Below, in pieces: positions 2,599 to 39,713 of a stretch of DNA of 64,000 nucleotides. Made by a program: the position numbers and the translations under genes. Within the stretch, counting starts at the first letter, position 1; each line of letters starts with the position of its first letter. The DNA is taken from positions 3,410,001-3,474,000 of the forward strand of contig NVQB01000001.1 in the NCBI GenBank assembly GCA_002319075.1, given 5' to 3'. The notes below the pieces were generated by a model. That model worked only from the letters and a program-made list of their open reading frames with translations. It made no database searches and was not told the DNA's origin. The DNA comes from Sphingobacteriaceae bacterium. Its GTDB lineage: Bacteria > Bacteroidota > Bacteroidia > B-17B0 > Aurantibacillaceae.

Positions 2599-5001
2599 AT
2601 GCGACATTTTTTTTTATGGACTCTTGTTTTATGCAGTAGTTTAGGCTTTGCACAAACACCTGCCAAATACACTATTTCGGGATACATTAACGAAAAAGGA
2701 AGTAGGGAAAATCTTCCAGGTGCTACCGTATATGTGCCAAAGCTTAAGGTCGGCGCAGCAAGCAACAGCTATGGTTTTTATTCTATCACTTTGCCCGCTG
2801 ATACAATTGAAGTGCTCATTTCTTATGTAGGCTACAAAGCTCAGGCTTTTAAGATTCAGCTGAATAAAAATATTCAGCTAGACATTGAAATGCAAAGTAA
2901 TTCCCTGTTGGAGGAAGTAGAAATTACGGCAAAAAGTGAAGAGAGTATTAGTGAAGATGTGCAGATGAGTAAAATTGATTTACCGGTGGAACAAATTAAA
3001 AGTCTGCCTGCACTGTTAGGTGAAAAAGATGTTTTAAAAGCTATTCAGTTATTGCCCGGTGTTCAAAAGGGAAGTGAGGGTAGCAGCGGTATCTACGTGA
3101 GAGGCGGAGGACCGGATCAAAATTTAATTATTTTAGATGATGCTACCGTGTACAATGCCAGCCACTTATTTGGATTTTTCTCTTTGTTTAATGGCGATGC
3201 GCTAAAAAGCGTTGAACTTACTAAAGGTGGATTTCCCTCCCGCTACGGAGGGCGCCTTTCTTCGGTCATAGATATGCAAATGAAGGATGGTAACAAAGAA
3301 AAAATAAAAGCGGATGTCGGCATAGGATTAATTTCATCGCGGCTCACACTTGAAGGCCCGCTTAAAAAAAACAAAGCCTCCTTTTTAATTTCCGGGCGAC
3401 GCACTTATATCGATTTTTTAGCTCGTCCTTTAATTAAAAAATATTCTGAGGGTGTTATTGCTGGATATTATTTTTATGATCTCAATGCCAAACTGAATTA
3501 TAATATCAATTACAGGAATAAAATTTATTTGAGCGGGTATTTTGGAAAAGACAAATTTTATTTACGCGATGATCAAAGTGACGCTACTTATACTCAAAAG
3601 ACGGAGGCTGGTCTCCAGTGGGGAAACGCGACGGCTACATTACGGTGGAATCACCTGTTTACAGATAAGTTATTTTCAAATATCTCTTTAATTTGTTCAG
3701 ATTATAAGTTAGGGGTTAAATTTAAGGAAACAGATGACTTCGGATCGTTTGATTTGAAATACAATTCAGGAATACGGGATTATTCTGTGAAAGGTGATCT
3801 TGATTTTTTCCCCAGCGCAAATCACAAAATTAAAACGGGCCTTGTGGCCACTTTTCATCACTTTACACCCAATGCAGTGGTTTATAAAGAGTCAAGCGAA
3901 CCAGCCTCATCAAAAAAAACGGTGATAGATGCAACAGAGGCAGCAATATATGTAGAAGATGATTATAAGATCACACAAAAATGGAGAATCAATGCAGGCA
4001 TTAGACTAACCAATTTTAACGTCCGCAAAAAGTCCTACATAAATCCTGAACCGAGATTATCTGTGCGCTATGCAATTAACAAAACCTTGTCGGTAAAAGC
4101 AAGTTATGCCACTATGAACCAATATCTGCATTTGCTTTCCAATTCGGGCTATAGTTTGCCAACCGATCTTTGGGTGCCTGCCACAGATCGTGTTAAGCCC
4201 CAACAATCCAAACAAGTAGCATTAGGTTTAGCAAAAGATTTAAAAATTAAGGAGATGGATTTTTTAGTTTCATTAGAAGGATATTACAAGAGCTCAAAAA
4301 ATGTGATAGGGTATAAGGAAGGCGCCTCTTTTATAAATATAGATGATATCAATCCTTATACTACAAGAAAATACACTTACGAAGATGCTGTAACATCCGG
4401 TAAAGCAGAAAGCTACGGTGCTGAATTTTTTCTCCAAAAGAAAGCTGGCAAATTTACTGGATGGGTAGGCTATACACTTTCATGGACCTGGTTGACTTTT
4501 GATGAACTTAATTTTGGAAAACGTTTTCCTGCCCGGTACGACAGGCGTCACGATATTTCTGTTGTTGGAATTTATAAACTAAGCAAAAAAATAAGTTTTT
4601 CGGCTGTGTGGGTTTATGGTACAGGTAATGCCATTACACTTCCTTTATCCACATACCAGTTAAAAGATCACAGTTCCCAGTACTCTCAAACCATTGTGTC
4701 GCAGCAGGCATTATCACACGGCTATCCGGTTACTTATAACGACAATCCCATTGTAAACGATTATGGTGAGAGGAATAGTTTTCGTATGGCGTCCTACCAC
4801 CGCCTGGATGTAGCTGTGCAGTTTCATAAGATCCGGAAAAAATACGAACGTATATTTGAACTCGGACTCTACAATGCCTATAACCGCAAAAATCCCTTTT
4901 TTTATACAACACAAGTAGATCGTAAAACGAACGAAACCAAATTAATTCAGATTTCTTTATTCCCAATTATCCCATCAATTTCATGGACATGGAAATTTTA
5001 A
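2599..5001 (+). CDS. TonB-dependent outer membrane receptor with carboxypeptidase-regulatory-like N-terminal domain
   Basis: An 800-residue outer membrane receptor. Residues 1-19 are a signal peptide ending FAQ. Residues 25-105 form a carboxypeptidase-regulatory-like domain (YTISGYINEKGS...LPGATVYV). The plug follows (about 130-235), with the hallmark GVQKGSEGSSGIYVRGGGPDQNLIILD and the PSRYGGRLSSVIDM stretch, then a 22-strand-type barrel ending in aromatic W-T-W-K-F. Such receptors import a substrate with TonB/ExbBD energy, but the substrate cannot be read from sequence. It is not a SusC, as no SusD follows; instead it is paired with a DUF4249 lipoprotein, a common Bacteroidota arrangement. 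The start is supported by the promoter and signal peptide. Confidence 0.93.
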   Translation: MRHFFLWTLVLCSSLGFAQTPAKYTISGYINEKGSRENLPGATVYVPKLKVGAASNSYGFYSITLPADTIEVLISYVGYKAQAFKIQLNKNIQLDIEMQSNSLLEEVEITAKSEESISEDVQMSKIDLPVEQIKSLPALLGEKDVLKAIQLLPGVQKGSEGSSGIYVRGGGPDQNLIILDDATVYNASHLFGFFSLFNGDALKSVELTKGGFPSRYGGRLSSVIDMQMKDGNKEKIKADVGIGLISSRLTLEGPLKKNKASFLISGRRTYIDFLARPLIKKYSEGVIAGYYFYDLNAKLNYNINYRNKIYLSGYFGKDKFYLRDDQSDATYTQKTEAGLQWGNATATLRWNHLFTDKLFSNISLICSDYKLGVKFKETDDFGSFDLKYNSGIRDYSVKGDLDFFPSANHKIKTGLVATFHHFTPNAVVYKESSEPASSKKTVIDATEAAIYVEDDYKITQKWRINAGIRLTNFNVRKKSYINPEPRLSVRYAINKTLSVKASYATMNQYLHLLSNSGYSLPTDLWVPATDRVKPQQSKQVALGLAKDLKIKEMDFLVSLEGYYKSSKNVIGYKEGASFINIDDINPYTTRKYTYEDAVTSGKAESYGAEFFLQKKAGKFTGWVGYTLSWTWLTFDELNFGKRFPARYDRRHDISVVGIYKLSKKISFSAVWVYGTGNAITLPLSTYQLKDHSSQYSQTIVSQQALSHGYPVTYNDNPIVNDYGERNSFRMASYHRLDVAVQFHKIRKKYERIFELGLYNAYNRKNPFFYTTQVDRKTNETKLIQISLFPIIPSISWTWKF

Positions 5002-20693: not shown

Positions 20694-21899
20694 CTAAACT
20701 CTTTCTATAACCACTGCAAAACCTTGTCCTACGCCAATGCACATGGTTACGAGTGCATACCGTTTTTGTTGAAGTTGTAGTTCCATTGCAGCAGTTGTTA
20801 AAATGCGAGCGCCACTCATGCCTAAAGGATGTCCTAAAGCGATAGCGCCTCCGTTTGGATTAATTCGGGCATCATCGTCTTTTAATCCCCAAGCTCTGAT
20901 CACTGCTATACTCTGCGCAGCGAAGGCTTCGTTTAACTCGATAACATCCATGTCGTTAATGGTAAGACCTGCTTTTGTTAACGCTATTTCGGAGGCCGGT
21001 ACAGGCCCAATGCCCATGATGCGGGGTTCAACACCTGCAACACCACTACTAAGTATGCGTGCAAGAGGTTTTAAATTATACGCCTTTACTGCTTTTTCGG
21101 AAGCCAATAATAAAGCGGCAGCTCCATCATTTAGGCCAGCTGCATTTCCTGCAGTTACGGTTCCCTCTTTTGCAAAGGCCGGACGCAGTTTGGATAAAAC
21201 TTCAAAAGTGGTTGTGGGTTTTATGAACTCGTCTTTCGCAAAAACTAAGTCGTCTCCTTTTTTTTGTGGAATAGAAACAGACACTGTTTCTTTTTCAAAA
21301 CGCCCTGCTGCCTGTGCCTTCGCAGCTTTTTGATGTGAACGCATTCCGAAAGTGTCCTGGTCTTGACGATTTATGTTGTATTGCCTGGCAACATTCTCGG
21401 CGGTATCACCCATCGAGTCTACTCCATACAACTCTTTTAATTTTGGGTTAATAAAACGCCAGCCGAAACTACTGTCAAACATTTGTGCATCTCTTCCAAA
21501 AGCAGAACTGGTTTTAGAAATAACCCATGGACCGCGCGTCATGTTCTCCACACCCCCCGCGATAATCAAATCAGCATCGCCGGTTTGGATCGCTCTTGCC
21601 GCACTGATAGCTGCGGATAGTCCCGAAGCACATAAACGATTCACCGTCTCCCCGGGAACCGTTATAGGTAGTCCTGCCATTAACCCCGCCATGCGGGCCA
21701 CGTTGCGATTATCTTCGCCAGCCTGGTTTGCGCAACCTAAGATAACGTCGTAAATTTTTGATTGGTCAATAGTCGGATTTCTTTTTAGCAGCTCTTTAAT
21801 GACCAAAGTTGCTAAATCATCCGGACGAACTGCTGCCAGCGTTCCGCCAAAATTTCCAATAGGTGTTCTCACACCATCAATTATGTATGCGTTGTTCAT
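20694..21899 (-). CDS. paaJ: 3-oxoadipyl-CoA/3-oxo-5,6-dehydrosuberyl-CoA thiolase PaaJ
   Basis: A 401-residue thiolase. The nucleophile is Cys90 in NRLCASGLSA, the catalytic His is in NPNGGAIALGHPLGMSGAR and the second Cys is in VTMCIGVGQG. GGVENMTRGPWV and the 401-residue length fit the PcaF/PaaJ branch. It performs the two thiolytic steps of the pathway, releasing acetyl-CoA and finally succinyl-CoA. The gap to paaD is 7 nt, so it is operonic with the epoxidase genes. In this genome it could also serve the beta-ketoadipate pathway (pcaF). Confidence 0.93.
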   Translation of the reverse strand: MNNAYIIDGVRTPIGNFGGTLAAVRPDDLATLVIKELLKRNPTIDQSKIYDVILGCANQAGEDNRNVARMAGLMAGLPITVPGETVNRLCASGLSAAISAARAIQTGDADLIIAGGVENMTRGPWVISKTSSAFGRDAQMFDSSFGWRFINPKLKELYGVDSMGDTAENVARQYNINRQDQDTFGMRSHQKAAKAQAAGRFEKETVSVSIPQKKGDDLVFAKDEFIKPTTTFEVLSKLRPAFAKEGTVTAGNAAGLNDGAAALLLASEKAVKAYNLKPLARILSSGVAGVEPRIMGIGPVPASEIALTKAGLTINDMDVIELNEAFAAQSIAVIRAWGLKDDDARINPNGGAIALGHPLGMSGARILTTAAMELQLQQKRYALVTMCIGVGQGFAVVIERV

Positions 21900-21906
21900 A
21901 AATTGT

Positions 21907-22404
21907 TTAACGGTGACATTTAAAATAGTCGAAAGGTTCTTTGCAATCCTGGCACTGGTAGAGCGCTTTGCACGAAGTTGAACCGAATTGACTCATGACT
22001 TTTGTGTTCTTAGAATGGCATTGCGGACATTCCACAATCACTTCTTCACCAAATAATTGATGCACGTGTGGCGAGGAATCTACGGGTGGTGCAATGCCAT
22101 AAGCCTTTAACTTCTGTTTGCCTGCTTCAGAAAACCAATCGGTGGTCCAGGCGGGGCTTAATTGTGTTTTGATAGTTACCTTTTCAATCCCTTCTGCTAA
22201 AAGTGCGAGACGAATTTCAACCGCGATCATGTTCATGGCAGGACAACCAGAATAGGTAGGTGTGATGATAACCTCTACAGAACTATCTTCGTGCACAACA
22301 ACATCGCGCAAAACACCAAGGTCAGCAATGCTAATTACAGGGATTTCCGGATCACAAACATTTTCCAGTACTTTCCATATTTCGGCTTTATTTAATGTTA
22401 TCAT
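21907..22404 (-). CDS. paaD: Phenylacetyl-CoA epoxidase assembly protein PaaD
   Basis: A 165-residue protein with an N-terminal MIP18/DUF59 domain (VCDPEIPVISIADLG; TYSGCPAMNMI at 50-60) and a C-terminal zinc ribbon (Cys126, Cys129, Cys151, Cys154, plus Cys145 and Cys163). PaaD is needed for Fe-S or di-iron maturation of the PaaABCE epoxidase. Unusually, it is separated from paaC by a 299-bp gap filled with an inverted-end repeat element, although gene order and strand still fit one operon. Confidence 0.93.
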   Translation of the reverse strand: MITLNKAEIWKVLENVCDPEIPVISIADLGVLRDVVVHEDSSVEVIITPTYSGCPAMNMIAVEIRLALLAEGIEKVTIKTQLSPAWTTDWFSEAGKQKLKAYGIAPPVDSSPHVHQLFGEEVIVECPQCHSKNTKVMSQFGSTSCKALYQCQDCKEPFDYFKCHR

Positions 22405-22430
22405 GTTTACCGTTTTAGATTTCTGCTAAA

Positions 22431-22690
22431 TGAAACACATAGAGACATAGAGGGTATAGATTGATCAGCAGTGTTTCTATTAAGGTACATATAGAATTTG
22501 GATCCGCGTTCCAAAGTTAGTTTAGCGGTATTTCTGAGATATAGCATGTATGAAGTTTTCTTGCTTTCGTTTTTTTTCAGTTAGTTTATTCTTAGTGCCT
22601 TGGCAAACATTTGAAACGAAGCTTCAAATTATATGAGCCTCTATCCTCTCTTTATGCATCCAGCTGATCCTATGTATCTATGTGGTTAAA
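22431..22690. repeat. Intergenic word-repeat element with inverted ends, between paaC and paaD
   Basis: The left end (22433-22453) is built from the word ACATAGA repeated every 9-10 nt (AAACACATAGAGACATAG...). The right end (22669-22687) is its imperfect reverse complement (CCTATGTATCTATGTGGTT). The interior of about 220 bp shows no ORF. A closely similar left end occurs at 50607. It fills nearly all of the paaC-paaD gap, so it looks inserted or expanded within the operon. Confidence 0.65.
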
Positions 22691-22703
22691 ACATGTAGTC
22701 TAT

Positions 22704-23477
22704 TCACCACTGCAGTCCCGGATAAGCCCGCTGCACACTTTGCATCTCCGCAAGCAGGTAACTTAAATGTTCAGAGTGTTTGCCGGTTTTACCACCTTGT
22801 TGCACATTGTTTTTTGTTGTCGGTACAGTTAAGGATGCTTGTGTGAAAACATCCGTCACTTGTTCCAGCCATGTTTTTTTTATCGCTTCAAAATCTGGAA
22901 TTATTTTTTGCGCTATCAGAATTTTTTCATCGGCTGTAGGCTCTGTCAATTCTCCGCTAAACATCCACAAAGCTTTTAACGCTGTCTCCATTTTTTGTTT
23001 ACTGACATCTGTTCCATCTCCTAAACGAATCACCCATTCAGAACTCCATTTAATATGATAGCTGACTTCTTTAAAAGATTTTTCTGCTATTGCTCTGAGT
23101 GTTTCGTCCGGGCTTTTTCTTAATTCAGATAACACATGGTAATGAAAGCTGTCGAATAAAAATTGACGTAGTATCGTGTGCGCAAAATCTCCGTTCGGTT
23201 GTTCGCACAATAAAAGATTTTTAAATCCTTTGCTTTCGCGAAAATACGCATAATCGTCTTCTGACTTTCCTTTTCCTTCAAGACTTGCAGCGTAGTCGTA
23301 AAAATTACGCGCCTCGCCAATTAAATCCAGAGCAATGTTGCTCATTGCAATGTCCTGTTCAATAACCGGACCGTGTCCGCACCATTCAGAAAGACGATGG
23401 CTTAAGATCAGGCTTGTATCAGCCATAGACAACACATAGTTGAATAAAGAGTGCTGATTGTTTTTTTCTTTTTCCAT
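22704..23477 (-). CDS. paaC: Phenylacetyl-CoA epoxidase structural subunit PaaC
   Basis: A 257-residue ferritin-like helical protein matching PaaC: LFNYVLSMADTSLILSHRLSEWCGHGP near the N-terminus, ALDLIGEARNFYDYAA, and SYHIKWSSEWVIRLGDGT in the middle. PaaC pairs with PaaA in the PaaAC core of the multicomponent 1,2-epoxidase; PaaC is the structural partner. It starts 9 nt after paaB stops. A repeat element lies immediately downstream. Confidence 0.94.
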   Translation of the reverse strand: MEKEKNNQHSLFNYVLSMADTSLILSHRLSEWCGHGPVIEQDIAMSNIALDLIGEARNFYDYAASLEGKGKSEDDYAYFRESKGFKNLLLCEQPNGDFAHTILRQFLFDSFHYHVLSELRKSPDETLRAIAEKSFKEVSYHIKWSSEWVIRLGDGTDVSKQKMETALKALWMFSGELTEPTADEKILIAQKIIPDFEAIKKTWLEQVTDVFTQASLTVPTTKNNVQQGGKTGKHSEHLSYLLAEMQSVQRAYPGLQW

Positions 23478-23486
23478 GACTAAAAA

Positions 23487-23774
23487 TTACATGTGCCCGA
23501 TACCATCGGGAATAGTATAAAATGTTGGGTGCCTGTAAATCTTGCTGTTAGCCGATTCGTACAAAGCATCTTCTTCGTCGGGATTTGAAGCATGAATGTT
23601 AGCAGACTCCACTACCCAAATGCTTACACCTTCCATACGGCGGGTATAAACATCGCGTGCGTTTTCAACAGCCATCTCAGCATCTGCTGCATGAAGGCTT
23701 CCCACATGCTTATGGTCTAGTCCCTGCCTGCTGCGGATAAATACTTCCCATAAAGGCCAATCTCTTTTTTCCAT
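23487..23774 (-). CDS. paaB: Phenylacetyl-CoA epoxidase subunit PaaB
   Basis: A 95-residue protein with the PaaB signature WPLWEVFIRSRQGLDHKHVGSLHA and the conserved C-terminal VESANIHAS...YRHPTFYTIPDGIGHM. PaaB bridges the PaaAC heterodimers in the epoxidase complex. It lies 79 nt after paaA and 9 nt before paaC on the same strand. Full length. Confidence 0.95.
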   Translation of the reverse strand: MEKRDWPLWEVFIRSRQGLDHKHVGSLHAADAEMAVENARDVYTRRMEGVSIWVVESANIHASNPDEEDALYESANSKIYRHPTFYTIPDGIGHM

Positions 23775-23853
23775 GTTATTCGTGTTTAATGTTCAATTTT
23801 ATTTAATGTGGTTAGTGACACTCTGAACGGTTCAGTAGTTATCTTTAAAAGAC

Positions 23854-24813
23854 TTATGCTACTTTTTTATTTTCTCCTTTGCGTATTCTCTGCTTTTCTG
23901 CATGCGCTGAGGCAGCTTCTCTTACCCATTCTCCTTCGTCATAAGCTCTTTTGCGAGTTTCCAGTCTTTCGTGGTTGCAAGGGCCATTTCCTTTTACAAC
24001 ATTCCAGAATTCTTCCCAGTCAATTTCTCCAAAGTCGTAGTGTTTGGTCTCTTCGTTGTATTTTAATTTATCGTCGGGAATTTTTAATCCTAAATACTCT
24101 ACCTGCGGTATACACATGTCTACAAAACGCTGACGTAATTCGTCATTCGAAAACCGTTTAATTTTCCATTTCATCGATAATTCGCTGTTTGCCGACGCGT
24201 CATCGGTTGGACCAAACATCATTAAGGTTGGCCACCACCAGCGGTTCAAAGCGTCCTGTGCCATTTCTTTTTGTTCAGGACTTCCAGCGCAGAGAGCCAT
24301 CATAATTTCATAGCCTTGTCTTTGGTGAAAACTCTCTTCCTTGCAAACACGCACCATAGCTCTGGCGTAAGGACCATAAGAAGCACGGCACAAAGGTACC
24401 TGGTTCAGAATGGCGGCACCATCTACCAGCCAGCCAATCGCACCCATATCTGCCCAGGTTAAAGTAGGGTAATTAAAAATGCTTGAATATTTTGCTTTAC
24501 CAGAATGTAAATCATTGATGAGTTCTTCACGAGCTGCACCAAGGGTTTCGGCAGCGCTGTATAAATACAAGCCATGCCCCGCTTCGTCCTGCACTTTTGC
24601 AAGAAGCACTGCTTTTCTTTTTAAAGAAGGAGCGCGTGTCACCCAGTTACGTTCAGGCAACATACCCACAATTTCAGAATGCGCATGCTGAGAAATTTGA
24701 CGGATCAAAGTTTTGCGATAAGCATCCGGCATCCATTCTTTTGGCTCAATGCGCTGTTCAGCATCAATGTTAGCCTGGAATTTTTTTTCTAAATCAACGA
24801 TGTTATTTTTCAT
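23854..24813 (-). CDS. paaA: Phenylacetyl-CoA epoxidase catalytic subunit PaaA
   Basis: A 319-residue di-iron protein. [42 protein letters not shown] (E..H ligands) and [17 protein letters not shown] (second E..H pair) match PaaA. It inserts one oxygen atom across C1-C2 of phenylacetyl-CoA. The C-terminal [20 protein letters not shown] is also characteristic. The start at 24813 is conserved. It is separated from paaE by 560 bp containing the 21-bp repeat array, so it may need its own promoter; I found no good -7 box for it. Confidence 0.96.
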
Positions 24814-24920
24814 TGTATGTTTGATTAAGTTTTTATTGTATTCTCATTTTGTTACATCGGGGAGGGCAAAAGTCTATTTTACTTTTGAGCTAGCGTTGTC
24901 ACATCAGGGGGTAGTCCATG
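24814..24920. other. Short unique segment between paaA and the 21-bp array
   Basis: This 107-bp segment should hold any separate paaA promoter (minus strand), but no exact TAnnTTTG is visible in that direction. On the plus strand TACTTTTG occurs at 24880-24887, pointing into the array, with no TTG at normal spacing. Nothing else was recognised. Confidence 0.4.
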
Positions 24921-25372
24921 TTCTCGACTACGCTCGAACTGACATTCAAGGAACTCGAACTGACATCCAAGGAACTCGAACTGTTCTCGACTACGCTCGA
25001 ACTGACATCGCAAAAGCTCGAAATGTTCTCGACTACGCTCGAACTGACATCGCAAAAGCTCGAAATGTTCTCGACTACGCTCGAACTGACATTCGAAGAA
25101 CTCGAACTGACATTCAAGGAACTCGAACTGACATTCGAGGAGCTCGCACTGTTCTCGACTACGCTCGAACTGACATCGCAAAAGCTCGAAATGTTCTCGA
25201 CTACGCTCGAACTGACATCGCAAAAGCTCGAAATGTTCTCGACTACGCTCGCACTGACATTCGAGGAGCTCGAACTGACATTCGAGGAGCTCGAACTGAC
25301 ATTCGAGGAGCTCGCACTGACATTCGAGAAGCCCGCATTGGCACCCTTACAACTAAAACGGTCAGCTTCCAT
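24899..25372 (-). other. Ser-rich open frame across the 21-bp array (doubtful gene)
   Basis: A 157-codon frame begins with an ATG at 25372, one base after the paaE stop, in the operon direction, and consists of seven-residue repeats such as SSSSNVS, SVVENIS and SFCDVSS. The opposite strand carries a 171-codon frame (24918-25433) with repeats such as TFKELEL, FSTTLEL and TSQKLEM. Both frames are probably by-products of a stop-free 21-bp unit. The close fit of the minus frame behind paaE is the only sign that it might be translated. Confidence 0.2.
24921..25340. repeat. Array of twenty contiguous 21-bp units in the paaE-paaA gap
   Basis: The stretch parses exactly into 20 units of 21 bp with no spacers. 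Three classes alternate: A (starts TTCTCGACTACG), B (ACATTCGAGGAG and variants such as ACATTCAAGGAA) and C (ACATCGCAAAAG), all closing with CTCGAACTG or a one- or two-base variant. The order is A B B | A C A C A B B B | A C A C A B B B | B. Units 4-11 (24984-25151) and 12-19 (25152-25319) therefore repeat as a 168-bp block. Class B units contain the inverted repeat TTCGAG-GAG-CTCGAA. The last unit is the most degenerate, as expected at an array edge. Because 21 is divisible by three, several frames remain open on both strands. Confidence 0.95.
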
Positions 25373-25373
25373 T

Positions 25374-26453
25374 TTATTTCACGTCAAAATTTATAACTAC
25401 ATCTTTTGTCTTGGGATGTGCCTGGCAGGTTAAAATAAATCCTGCATCAATTTCATCTTGTTCTAATCCGTAATTCACATCCATAGTCACTTCTCCTTTT
25501 TCGAGCTTTGCTTTGCAGGCACAACACACGCCCCCTTTGCAGGCATAAGGTAAATCAGACCCACTTTTCATCGCGGCATCTAAAATACTTTCGCCTTCGT
25601 ATGGAATTTCCATTTCTGTGGATACACCATCGAGTTTAATGATGACTTTGCTCCTGGGTCCGGTACTTATTTTAGTTACTTTCTTAATTTGTTTTTTTGC
25701 TAACTGAGCTCCGGCTGTGGTGAACAATTCGAAGTGTATGTTTTTTGTAGGAATACCGGCTGCAGCCAAAGTATCTTTCGCCGTTAGGATCAGGTCTTCA
25801 GGGCCGCACAAAAAACATTCGTCAATCATTACCGGATCAATGATATTTTTTAAGAAGTACTCTATTTTGGTTTTGTCAATGCGTCCTGCTAAAATTTCCG
25901 CGTCAGCTTTTTCCTGACTTAAAATATAGTATAGGCTAAGACGACGCATATACTTGTTCTTCAGCGCTTCAAACTGTTCTTTAAAAATAATAGAACCTTT
26001 ATTTTTGTTGCCGTATAATAAAATGATGGTGCTTTGCGGTTCTGTTTTTAAAATGGTTTTTACAATGGACATTACCGGGGTGATACCACTTCCAACAGCA
26101 ATAAAAAAATAATTCTTTTTATTGGTTTCTAAAAGATCGGTGCTAAATCTTCCCAGTGGTGGCATCACTTCCACTTCGTCTCCTACTTTTAATGTAGAAT
26201 AGGCGTAATTCGAGAATTTTCCTTCCGGAATGGTTTTAATAGCCACAGTCAATTGCTCATCAAGCGGACTAGAGCAGATAGAGTAGGAGCGGCGAACCTC
26301 TTCGCCATCAATGATTGTTTTTAAAGTGAGATATTGTCCGTGCTTAAAACCGAAGATTTCTTTTTTATCTTCAGGCACATCAAAAAGCACCGAAACACAT
26401 TCCGGTGTTTCTTTTTTCAGAGCTTTTATTTTTAAGTTATGGAAGCGTGACAT
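25374..26453 (-). CDS. paaE: Phenylacetyl-CoA epoxidase reductase PaaE
   Basis: A 359-residue reductase. The N-terminal FAD domain has RRSYSICSSP, the NAD(P)H domain has VGSGITPVMSIVKTIL and ECFLCGPEDLI, and the C-terminal plant-type [2Fe-2S] ferredoxin domain has CKGGVCCACKAKLEKG and a final Cys in ILTCQAHP. It passes electrons from NADPH to the PaaA di-iron site. It starts two bases after the TetR gene stops. Unusually, it precedes paaABC; in E. coli it follows paaD. Confidence 0.95.
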   Translation of the reverse strand: MSRFHNLKIKALKKETPECVSVLFDVPEDKKEIFGFKHGQYLTLKTIIDGEEVRRSYSICSSPLDEQLTVAIKTIPEGKFSNYAYSTLKVGDEVEVMPPLGRFSTDLLETNKKNYFFIAVGSGITPVMSIVKTILKTEPQSTIILLYGNKNKGSIIFKEQFEALKNKYMRRLSLYYILSQEKADAEILAGRIDKTKIEYFLKNIIDPVMIDECFLCGPEDLILTAKDTLAAAGIPTKNIHFELFTTAGAQLAKKQIKKVTKISTGPRSKVIIKLDGVSTEMEIPYEGESILDAAMKSGSDLPYACKGGVCCACKAKLEKGEVTMDVNYGLEQDEIDAGFILTCQAHPKTKDVVINFDVK

Positions 26454-26455
26454 AA

Positions 26456-27043
26456 TTATTTTTTTAGACCGCTTAAAAGCAGGTTAGTAATATCTTTTTC
26501 TAATTCTTTTTCAGAGATTTTTCTTTTCGGATTATACCACAACTCAATCCAGCGTATGGCTGAAAGTATCGTAAACATAGCCACCGAAACATTTATAGGT
26601 GCAAATTCTTTTTTAGAGATGCCATTTTCTATCAATGCCGCAAACCTGGCTTCGTAACCTTTGCGTAAAGTTTTAAAAATAGAAAGTTTTGGTTCCGGTA
26701 AAGATTTCCAATCATTGTTGGTTACAGACACAGATGCCGCATCTTCGATCATCAACTGAATATGGAGTCGAATGATAGACTTTAGTTTTTCAGTGTAAGA
26801 TGACTTTTCATTTTCAACCTTAGAAATGTGTGAAACATATTCTCCCGCAATGCGGAAACAAATTTCTTCAAGCATCTCGTCTTTGGATTTAATGTGACTG
26901 TAAATACTCGCAGCCTCCACTCCCACGCGTTCTGCCAGGTCTCTCATCGAAGCGCTTCCATAGCCTTTCTCTTTAAATAAGAGCGCAGCTTCTTTAAGAA
27001 TGTTTTCTCTTTTAGAGATCTTTTTTTTGACAGCAGTTGGCAT
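26456..27043 (-). CDS. paaR: TetR-family regulator, probable phenylacetate repressor PaaR
   Basis: A 195-residue TetR protein. The N-terminal helix-turn-helix covers about residues 12-58 (ILKEAALLFKEKGYGSASMRDLAERVGVEAASIYSHIKSKDEML), and the C-terminal helices form the ligand domain (TetR_C type). It is first in the paa transcript with paaE two bases downstream, so the repressor and pathway are co-transcribed. A symmetric site 58 bp upstream matches the Thermus PaaR consensus as I recall it. Phenylacetyl-CoA is the expected inducer by analogy. Identity as PaaR is inferred from position and operator rather than from diagnostic residues. Confidence 0.8.
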   Translation of the reverse strand: MPTAVKKKISKRENILKEAALLFKEKGYGSASMRDLAERVGVEAASIYSHIKSKDEMLEEICFRIAGEYVSHISKVENEKSSYTEKLKSIIRLHIQLMIEDAASVSVTNNDWKSLPEPKLSIFKTLRKGYEARFAALIENGISKKEFAPINVSVAMFTILSAIRWIELWYNPKRKISEKELEKDITNLLLSGLKK

Positions 27044-34147: not shown

Positions 34148-34221
34148 GGTTCCATAGCTCAACTGGATAGAGCACCTCACTACGGATGAGGAGGTTTGGG
34201 GTTCGACTCCCTATGGTACCA
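34148..34221 (+). tRNA. tRNA-Arg (anticodon ACG)
   Basis: A 74-nt cloverleaf: acceptor GGTTCCA with TGGTACC (one T:T mismatch at pair 4:69), D stem GCTC/GAGC, anticodon stem CCTCA/TGAGG with loop CTACGGA (anticodon ACG, reading CGN), variable AGGTT, T arm TGGGG-TTCGACT-CCCTA, discriminator A at 34221. The full CCA tail is not encoded. The T:T mismatch is unusual but isolated. A covarying copy of the 3' end and terminator lies at 34764-34830. Confidence 0.93.
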
Positions 34222-39413: not shown

Positions 39414-39713
39414 TTAACCACTAAGGCACCAAGATCACTTAGGAGCACTAAGAAATAATAAGCGAAAATCGTCGCGTACTTTTGACTACTAAGGCACTAA
39501 GATCACTTAGGAACACTAAGAAAAATAAGCGAAAATCGTCGCGTACTTTTGACCACTAAGGCACTAAGACCACTTAGGAACACTAAGAAAAATAAGCGAA
39601 AATCGTCGCGTACTTTTGACTACTAAGGCACTAAGACCACTTAGGGACACTAAGAAAAAAAGCAGGAAAAAGTCTAAGTGTTTCTTGTGTCCTTAGTGTC
39701 TTAGTGGTAAGAA
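39414..39713. repeat. Word-repeat element with inverted ends and ~67-bp tandem units, between lgt and purN
   Basis: The left end (TTAACCACTAAGGCACCAAG, from 39414) and right end (39688-39713, TCCTTAGTGTCTTAGTGG) are imperfect reverse complements built from the word CACTAAG. Inside are three tandem units (39417-39484, 39485-39551, 39552-39618; 68, 67 and 67 bp) and a diverged fourth from 39619. Each unit contains several CACTAAG words, then AAGCGAAAATCGTCGCG, and ends with TACTTTTG. No ORF. It fills most of the 363-bp gap. Confidence 0.9.

Follow-up and report, generated by a model that had tools for sequence, protein, structure and literature searches.

The closest described counterparts of the repeat reported here are the REPs, short stem-loops dispersed in genomes. 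In the accessible portion of Di Nocera et al. 2013 (PMC3733652), most REPs occupy gaps between ORFs that converge or run in one direction, often very close to the 3′ end, and tandem reiteration occurs in places. The CGTC-tagged REPs of that portion carry at one end an unpaired tag that is often TGTC, and form inverted pairs with the tags outward, head-head pairs being predominant. They occupy sites 3′ of convergent or co-directional ORFs, are reported from phyla that include the Bacteroidetes, and have no dedicated transposase. Their stem is 8–9 bp long with A and T in the first two pairs, their loop is 4–5 nt, and their short unpaired tail is mostly CCA. The GTAG REPs or REPINs, mobilised by RAYT/TnpA_REP, are likewise dispersed stem-loops; they occur singly, in pairs or in clusters, frequently close to stop codons. 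A GTAG tetranucleotide stands at the foot of their hairpin, and the RAYT gene is flanked by the repeat; the same portion of PMC3733652 adds that the GTAG termini often supply the stop codon and that clusters reiterated in tandem occur too. A further system, TnpA_REP subclass 2.6, is found mostly in Bacteroidetes and, in the text of PMC6006769 available to us, is flanked by "atypical secondary structures" with copies elsewhere in the genome.

The locus compared here with these systems lies in a window of 64,000 nucleotides, the whole stretch of DNA that was analysed, from the genome of a Sphingobacteriaceae bacterium (contig NVQB01000001.1). A tandem array separates paaE from paaA on the minus strand. 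The gene run to which they belong also includes paaB, paaC, paaD and a gene for 3-oxoadipyl-CoA thiolase, and a TetR-like gene lies upstream of it (Table 1). The first-pass annotation had divided the paaE–paaA array exactly into 20 units of 21 bp belonging to three classes, and a unit split reproduced the division, the absence of spacers and the order A B B A C A C A B B B A C A C A B B B B. The last unit (unit 20) is the most divergent. The locus does not resemble a CRISPR array, in which unique spacers separate identical repeats, because its units are contiguous and have no spacers.

Table 1. Coordinates within the window of the array, the elements in and beside it, and the flanking genes.
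Feature	Position	Strand	Basis
Tandem array, 20 × 21 bp	24921..25340	- (tag-first strand = paa gene direction)	unit split, Tandem Repeats Finder, lag analysis
168-bp higher-order repeat, copy 1 (units 4–11)	24984..25151	-	Tandem Repeats Finder, unit split, lag analysis
168-bp higher-order repeat, copy 2 (units 12–19)	25152..25319	-	Tandem Repeats Finder, unit split, lag analysis
Full element closing the array, TGTCA-GTTC-GAGCGTAGTCGA-GAAC, 25 bp, first copy	24920..24944	-	
Full element (class A unit 4)	24983..25007	-	unit split and general pattern
Full element (class A unit 6)	25025..25049	-	unit split and general pattern
Full element (class A unit 8)	25067..25091	-	unit split and general pattern
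Full element (class A unit 12)	25151..25175	-	unit split and general pattern
Full element (class A unit 14)	25193..25217	-	unit split and general pattern
Element of class A unit 16, stem pairs 3/4	25235..25259	-	general pattern
Degenerate element, TGTCA-CATC-AGGGGGTAGTC-CATG, stem pairs 3/4, tag outward	24897..24920	+	read from sequence, no scored match
paaE, upstream neighbour	25374..26453	-	NCBIfam TIGR02160
paaA, downstream neighbour	23854..24813	-	NCBIfam TIGR02156

The mixed order of the units is a nested duplication with a 168-bp higher-order repeat. Units 4–11 and units 12–19 both read A C A C A B B B, and Tandem Repeats Finder scores the array 257 at a period of 21, 419 at 42 and 711 at 168. 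Compared with itself at an offset of 168 bp, the array shows an identity of 0.873, a value matched by 26 of 2000 shuffled unit orders at any lag of 2–12 units. The higher-order repeat explains the order of A, B and C, and bears out the earlier remark that slippage of one unit alone would not produce it.

Very probably, the array arose when a short, non-coding stem-loop repeat of REP-like type was amplified locally. On the minus strand, the element reads TGTCA, a 4-nt arm, a constant 12-nt interior (GAGCGNAGTCGA) and the complementary arm; the period of 21 is the sum of the tag (5), one arm (4) and the interior (12). The 21-bp period of the first-pass annotation is retained and its register is not, as the element measures 25 bp and its first copy spans 24920–24944 (Table 1). 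In the tag-first reading, class A is the full element, class B is a one-armed unit with a changed interior, and class C, in which the tag is absent, is a one-armed variant with a different interior; A and C together make 42 bp. In the first-pass division an A unit never precedes another A, because it takes the last three bases of its tag (ACA) from the next unit. At the left end of the array lies the degenerate element, whose sequence is comparable to TGTCACATCGAGCGTAGTCGAGATG among the matches of the general pattern given below. Judged by its sequence, this worn copy is possibly an inverted partner, and the locus would then resemble an inverted pair with one side expanded.

Searching for the units genome-wide and in relatives, as had been suggested, revealed a dispersed repeat. 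The 17-base class A core has at least 158 matches in the genome with at most one mismatch (84 and 74 on the two strands, none for the reversed control) and 96 exact ones. The general pattern, TGTCA-N4-GAGCGNAGTCGA-N4-V, gives at least 229 matches with at most one mismatch and at least 139 exact matches. Forty stretches around core matches, that of the window included, were chosen from the matches listed for the core or the general pattern and not at random; they hold singles, pairs and arrays, with units that vary by locus. The same family makes arrays at other loci of this genome, and a special tie of the array to the paa operon or the complex of its products is not supported. Since the family is dispersed in this genome and in some relatives, the array represents a dense instance of a type of genome repeat already known and not a new system.

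The arm sequence varies between loci with its complementarity kept. In a set made of the first copy per locus and strand in the 40 stretches (47 copies; pattern with the interior and the two inner pairs fixed, the two outer pairs and the tag free), the outermost stem pair is complementary in 45 copies, as G-C, C-G, T-A or A-T; none of 20000 shuffles equals this, the best reaching 28. TGACA, the reversed tag, stands behind the stem in 43 of the 47, the exceptions being L023, L025, L027 and the minus-strand copy of L033. Among the matches listed for eight relatives, 53 elements show 16 distinct arm combinations; their four stem pairs are Watson-Crick in 50, 50, 52 and 52 cases (0 of 5000 shuffles each), and the A behind TGTC is paired in none of the 53. 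The covariation in the 47 copies and in the 53 elements of the relatives shows a genuine stem of 4 bp. The TTCGAG/CTCGAA hairpin attributed earlier to class B is not this stem; the covarying stem of the family is a different one.

The general pattern was found in at least 22 of 41 genomes and, across the phylum, in at least 25 of 198 (this genome counted in both; reversed control 0). The statement in the first-pass annotation that kindred units are scattered in other Bacteroidota proved correct: relatives carry the family as singles and inverted pairs, with 6 inverted pairs among 27 elements at 20 loci of two genomes (G019 and G007) and 3 among 28 at 20 loci of two others (G224 and G157). A contig of a viral collection, IMGVR_UViG_3300034061_005821 (3334–3410 of stretch L225), carries the repeat in a three-unit form, preceded by a terminator-like hairpin. 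At five loci of the present genome (L165, L170, L173, L199, L201) many interiors are split between GAGC and GTAGTCGA by a 38-bp piece that holds a hairpin such as TTAACATCCAGTGGATGTTAA, with a spacing of 59 bp (21 + 38), as if a second small element were nested inside the first.

Elements are mostly located downstream of genes, like REPs. With ORFs taken from a simple script, so that distances and contexts are approximate, the 40 loci of this genome comprise 17 convergent gaps, 19 same-strand gaps, one divergent gap and three sites within an apparent ORF; placement is thus convergent or co-directional in 36 of 40, against 26 of the 36 gaps of the whole window (10 of 36 divergent). Counting cores with at most one mismatch and any stem state, 47 gene ends of this genome have an element within 300 bp downstream. 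Seventeen of these gene ends lie within 8 nt of the core, and the closing arm is on the gene side in every one of them; 15 are at most 4 nt away, with the position of the arm touching or overlapping the stop codon. Farther away, the closing arm faces the gene in 10 cases and the tag in 4 at 9–60 nt, and in 6 and 10, respectively, at 61–300 nt. Abutment on the stop codon was rejected as a general law: gene ends within 8 nt of the core number 0 of 22 in G019 and G007 and 2 of 29 in G224 and G157, 2 of 51 in the four genomes, where the tag faces the gene in 33 of the 51 cases up to 300 bp (40 loci). Its near-absence there makes the abutment look like a trait of this genome and not of the family. 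In the array of the window, the tag side and not the closing arm is directed towards the upstream stop codon, opposite to the 17 closest cases of the same genome.

How far does the family agree with the described REPs? It comes closest to the CGTC/TGTC-tagged REP. The two share the short dispersed stem-loop, the tag at one end, the inverted pairs with tags outward, the sites 3′ of convergent or co-directional ORFs, the occurrence in Bacteroidetes and the lack of a dedicated transposase, insofar as the accessible portion of PMC3733652 describes them. Here the unpaired TGTC/CGTC end tag is seen as TGACA in 43 of 47 copies and the site downstream of ORFs in 36 of 40 loci, and the CGTC tag itself is present in the Hymenobacter kin L057 and L068. 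In contrast, the stem has four pairs instead of 8–9 bp, and, against the A and T in the first two pairs of the CGTC-tagged REPs, the A behind TGTC is paired in 0 of 53. The 12-nt interior GAGCGNAGTCGA, fixed by the search patterns, stands against their loop of 4–5 nt; no CCA follows directly behind the closing arm in the loci listed here; and head-to-tail runs are long and prominent in this genome. The family does not qualify as a CGTC-tagged REP under that definition, since it departs from it in the length of the stem, the length of the loop, the first stem pairs and the tail. By analogy, the element sits like a CGTC-tagged REP and probably works like one. The GTAG REPs and REPINs differ by their tetranucleotide, TGTC being found here, and by the RAYT gene flanked by the repeat, an arrangement not seen at the gene loci examined here. 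The result is a REP-like family of the Bacteroidota whose consensus is defined and whose stem covaries strongly. A literature search by sequence string did not find the family sequence in print, and a consensus drawn in figures or supplements could exist; a table in the accessible part of PMC12306157 names two Flavobacterium genomes.

No transposase gene tied to the element was found with PF01797 and NF047646 in this genome or at 20 gene loci of its relatives. PF01797 (RAYT) has no match in this genome, and 31 of the 41 genomes have one. NF047646 finds one 206-aa HuH-like protein in this genome, at 52.9 bits against a cut-off of 80, which carries the motifs NHFH, WQ and YIHSNP, close to those that the consulted text of PMC6006769 lists for subclasses 2.4 and 2.6. 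Its 3.4-kb locus (L226) holds no element at up to two mismatches. Among 20 loci of RAYT-like genes, chosen from the PF01797 and NF047646 matches in the 40 relatives, 18 lack the element; one exception has it at a distance of 553 bp, next to a partial match close to the end of a contig, and the other at about 2.2 kb. RAYT was rejected as the mover, as no association is seen in this genome or at the 20 gene loci of relatives. The subclass 2.6 system, so far as the text at hand describes it, shares with the present family the phylum and the copies elsewhere in the genome; the two were compared by description and not by sequence. Unlike the flanks reported for that subclass, 18 of the 20 loci of relatives, taken without regard to subclass, are without the element.

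Local amplification of the REP-like element would have proceeded in several steps. An element, possibly half of an inverted pair whose other half is the worn copy, may have landed in the paaE–paaA gap, where a 21-bp segment (tag, one arm and interior) would then have been duplicated in tandem. Divergence of the units would have given the interiors of B and C, and larger blocks, of 42 bp and then of 168 bp, may have been duplicated again via slippage or unequal recombination.

Runs of comparable architecture recur elsewhere in the genome. Same-strand neighbouring cores are most commonly spaced by 21 bp (26 cases) and 22 bp (28 cases), and 21–22 bp runs are found at other loci with different arms. 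In 18 of 40 further stretches, copies follow one another at 30 bp or less, giving a total of 32 runs. In 17 of the 32, from 15 of the 18 loci, three or more stem pairs are possible in the last copy only; the other 15 runs comprise one with pairing in the first copy only (L166), seven mixed, six with pairing in all copies and one with pairing in none. Three of the 15 one-sided loci (L175, L180, L193) also carry runs of another type. The longest run, L186, has 17 copies at 22 bp, with pairing possible in the last copy alone. Each of the 14 copies at 23 bp in L216, which lies beyond the 40 loci, can pair (3 or 4 pairs), because the next tag provides half of the arm. The junction behind the interior is empty or 1–5 bases long and is constant at most loci, with more than one form at L180, L195, L200 and L201; at 12 loci listed for this genome it measures 0–3 nt, and the duplicated unit extends from the TGTC tag to the end of the interior, which leaves both arms in the last copy alone.

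In other genomes the paired stem also occupies the last copy of the 22- to 27-bp pairs or runs L205, L211 and L215 (one genome), L208, L209 and L213, and two, L207 and L210 (the latter at 27 bp), are not one-sided. Adjacent head-to-tail pairs of the exact pattern number 50 in this genome; among 395 others of the class, 5 have 1–3 and the rest have 0. Their rarity elsewhere makes amplification unusual for the family, and this genome an unusual concentration of its head-to-tail neighbours. A speculative and rather improbable account of this architecture is that ordinary slippage is not what extends the runs, but a single-strand process that is site-precise and one-sided, the closing arm being a host target that is chosen or copied by pairing with the guide arm of the element. 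The closing arm is a possible host target because it touches or overlaps the stop codon of the neighbour at 15 gene ends. One-sided growth with one fixed boundary offers a testable pattern for repeat multiplication without a known transposase, and it is this architecture and its concentration in one genome, rather than the paa operon, that merit further attention.

An alternative to amplification without a role is that the array has been adopted as a post-transcriptional element, which lowers paaABCD expression or separates it from that of paaE, or which shields the end of an mRNA; such functions have been proposed for intra-operon REPs. Such a role is compatible with the position between two same-strand genes and with the discussion of REPs as transcribed control sequences in the accessible portion of PMC3733652. 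Furthermore, inverted CGTC-tagged stem-loops of a related kind occur in the equivalent gap of Hymenobacter metallilatus and Hymenobacter sp. BT190 (L057, L068), and the gap therefore tolerates such repeats. However, the many small RNA hairpins foreseen in the first-pass annotation receive no backing from the fold of the whole array, which is no better than those of shuffles (z -1.10; 15 of 100 fold as well or better), and Rfam gives no match at 24700–25500 up to E 1; over the window its only hit is one tRNA (34148–34221). Nine of the 11 same-strand paaE–paaA gaps of 150 bp or more are also without the core within two mismatches, the exceptions being the two Hymenobacter loci, and for the 25 shorter gaps, searched with the exact pattern only, the sole match in L049–L164 is the window's own copy, L135. 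Neither RNA fold nor Rfam nor the search of other paaE–paaA gaps indicates a role in the paa operon. Adoption for control is thus unlikely, and under the preferred reading of local amplification a change in paa expression, should there be one, would probably be incidental; for the operon itself the array is of little importance.

A coding function, in which the array specifies a repetitive peptide of 7 residues per unit, is far less probable still. Four of the six frames are stop-free, and frames of 157, 171 and 215 aa cross the array, that of 157 aa running on the minus strand from just after the paaE stop codon; yet openness follows arithmetically from a stop-free unit of 21 bp, and family arrays elsewhere have frame-breaking spacings such as 22, 25, 26, 34/35 and 43/44/45 bp. 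The 157- and 171-aa frames have no NCBIfam match at E 0.001, and the 215-aa frame has nine weak ones, the best at E 3.8e-6 (a Rad50 model), all far under the cut-offs. An assembly artefact is equally implausible: tandem repeats are difficult to assemble, but the assembly has 2 contigs and 99.98% completeness, the units differ by point changes, and other loci share the architecture with different unit sequences.

The gene neighbourhood has a history of its own. Among 80 named PaaA loci, paaE lies upstream on the same strand in 36 and on the opposite strand in 14 more. By alignment ends, the same-strand gap is 11–126 bp in 25 of the 36 and 153–1250 bp in 11, and the earlier description of the gap as usually a few bases long was overstated. 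In other genomes of the genus, a paaE match accompanies 22 of 29 loci and lies on the opposite strand in all 22. The PaaA of the window is 79% identical to that of Epilithonimonas lactis and 62–70% identical to homologues of the genus, and a second paaA, 69% identical, is present in the same genome (C1:2823127–2824044). The gene order unlike that of the genus, the identity to the E. lactis protein and the second paaA suggest that the paa cluster of the window (20694–27043) was acquired. In the two Hymenobacter gaps, a palindrome, TAACTAACGATTGTTAGTTA, follows the stem-loops before paaA and is perhaps a TetR-type operator.

A second tandem array occupies positions 39420–39663 of the window, where Tandem Repeats Finder reports 3.6 copies of a 67-bp unit with 95% matches. 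It has no sequence kinship to the 21-bp array. Its unit is built of words like CACTAAGG and CACTAAGA, and an inverted relative lies just downstream, near 39675–39708.
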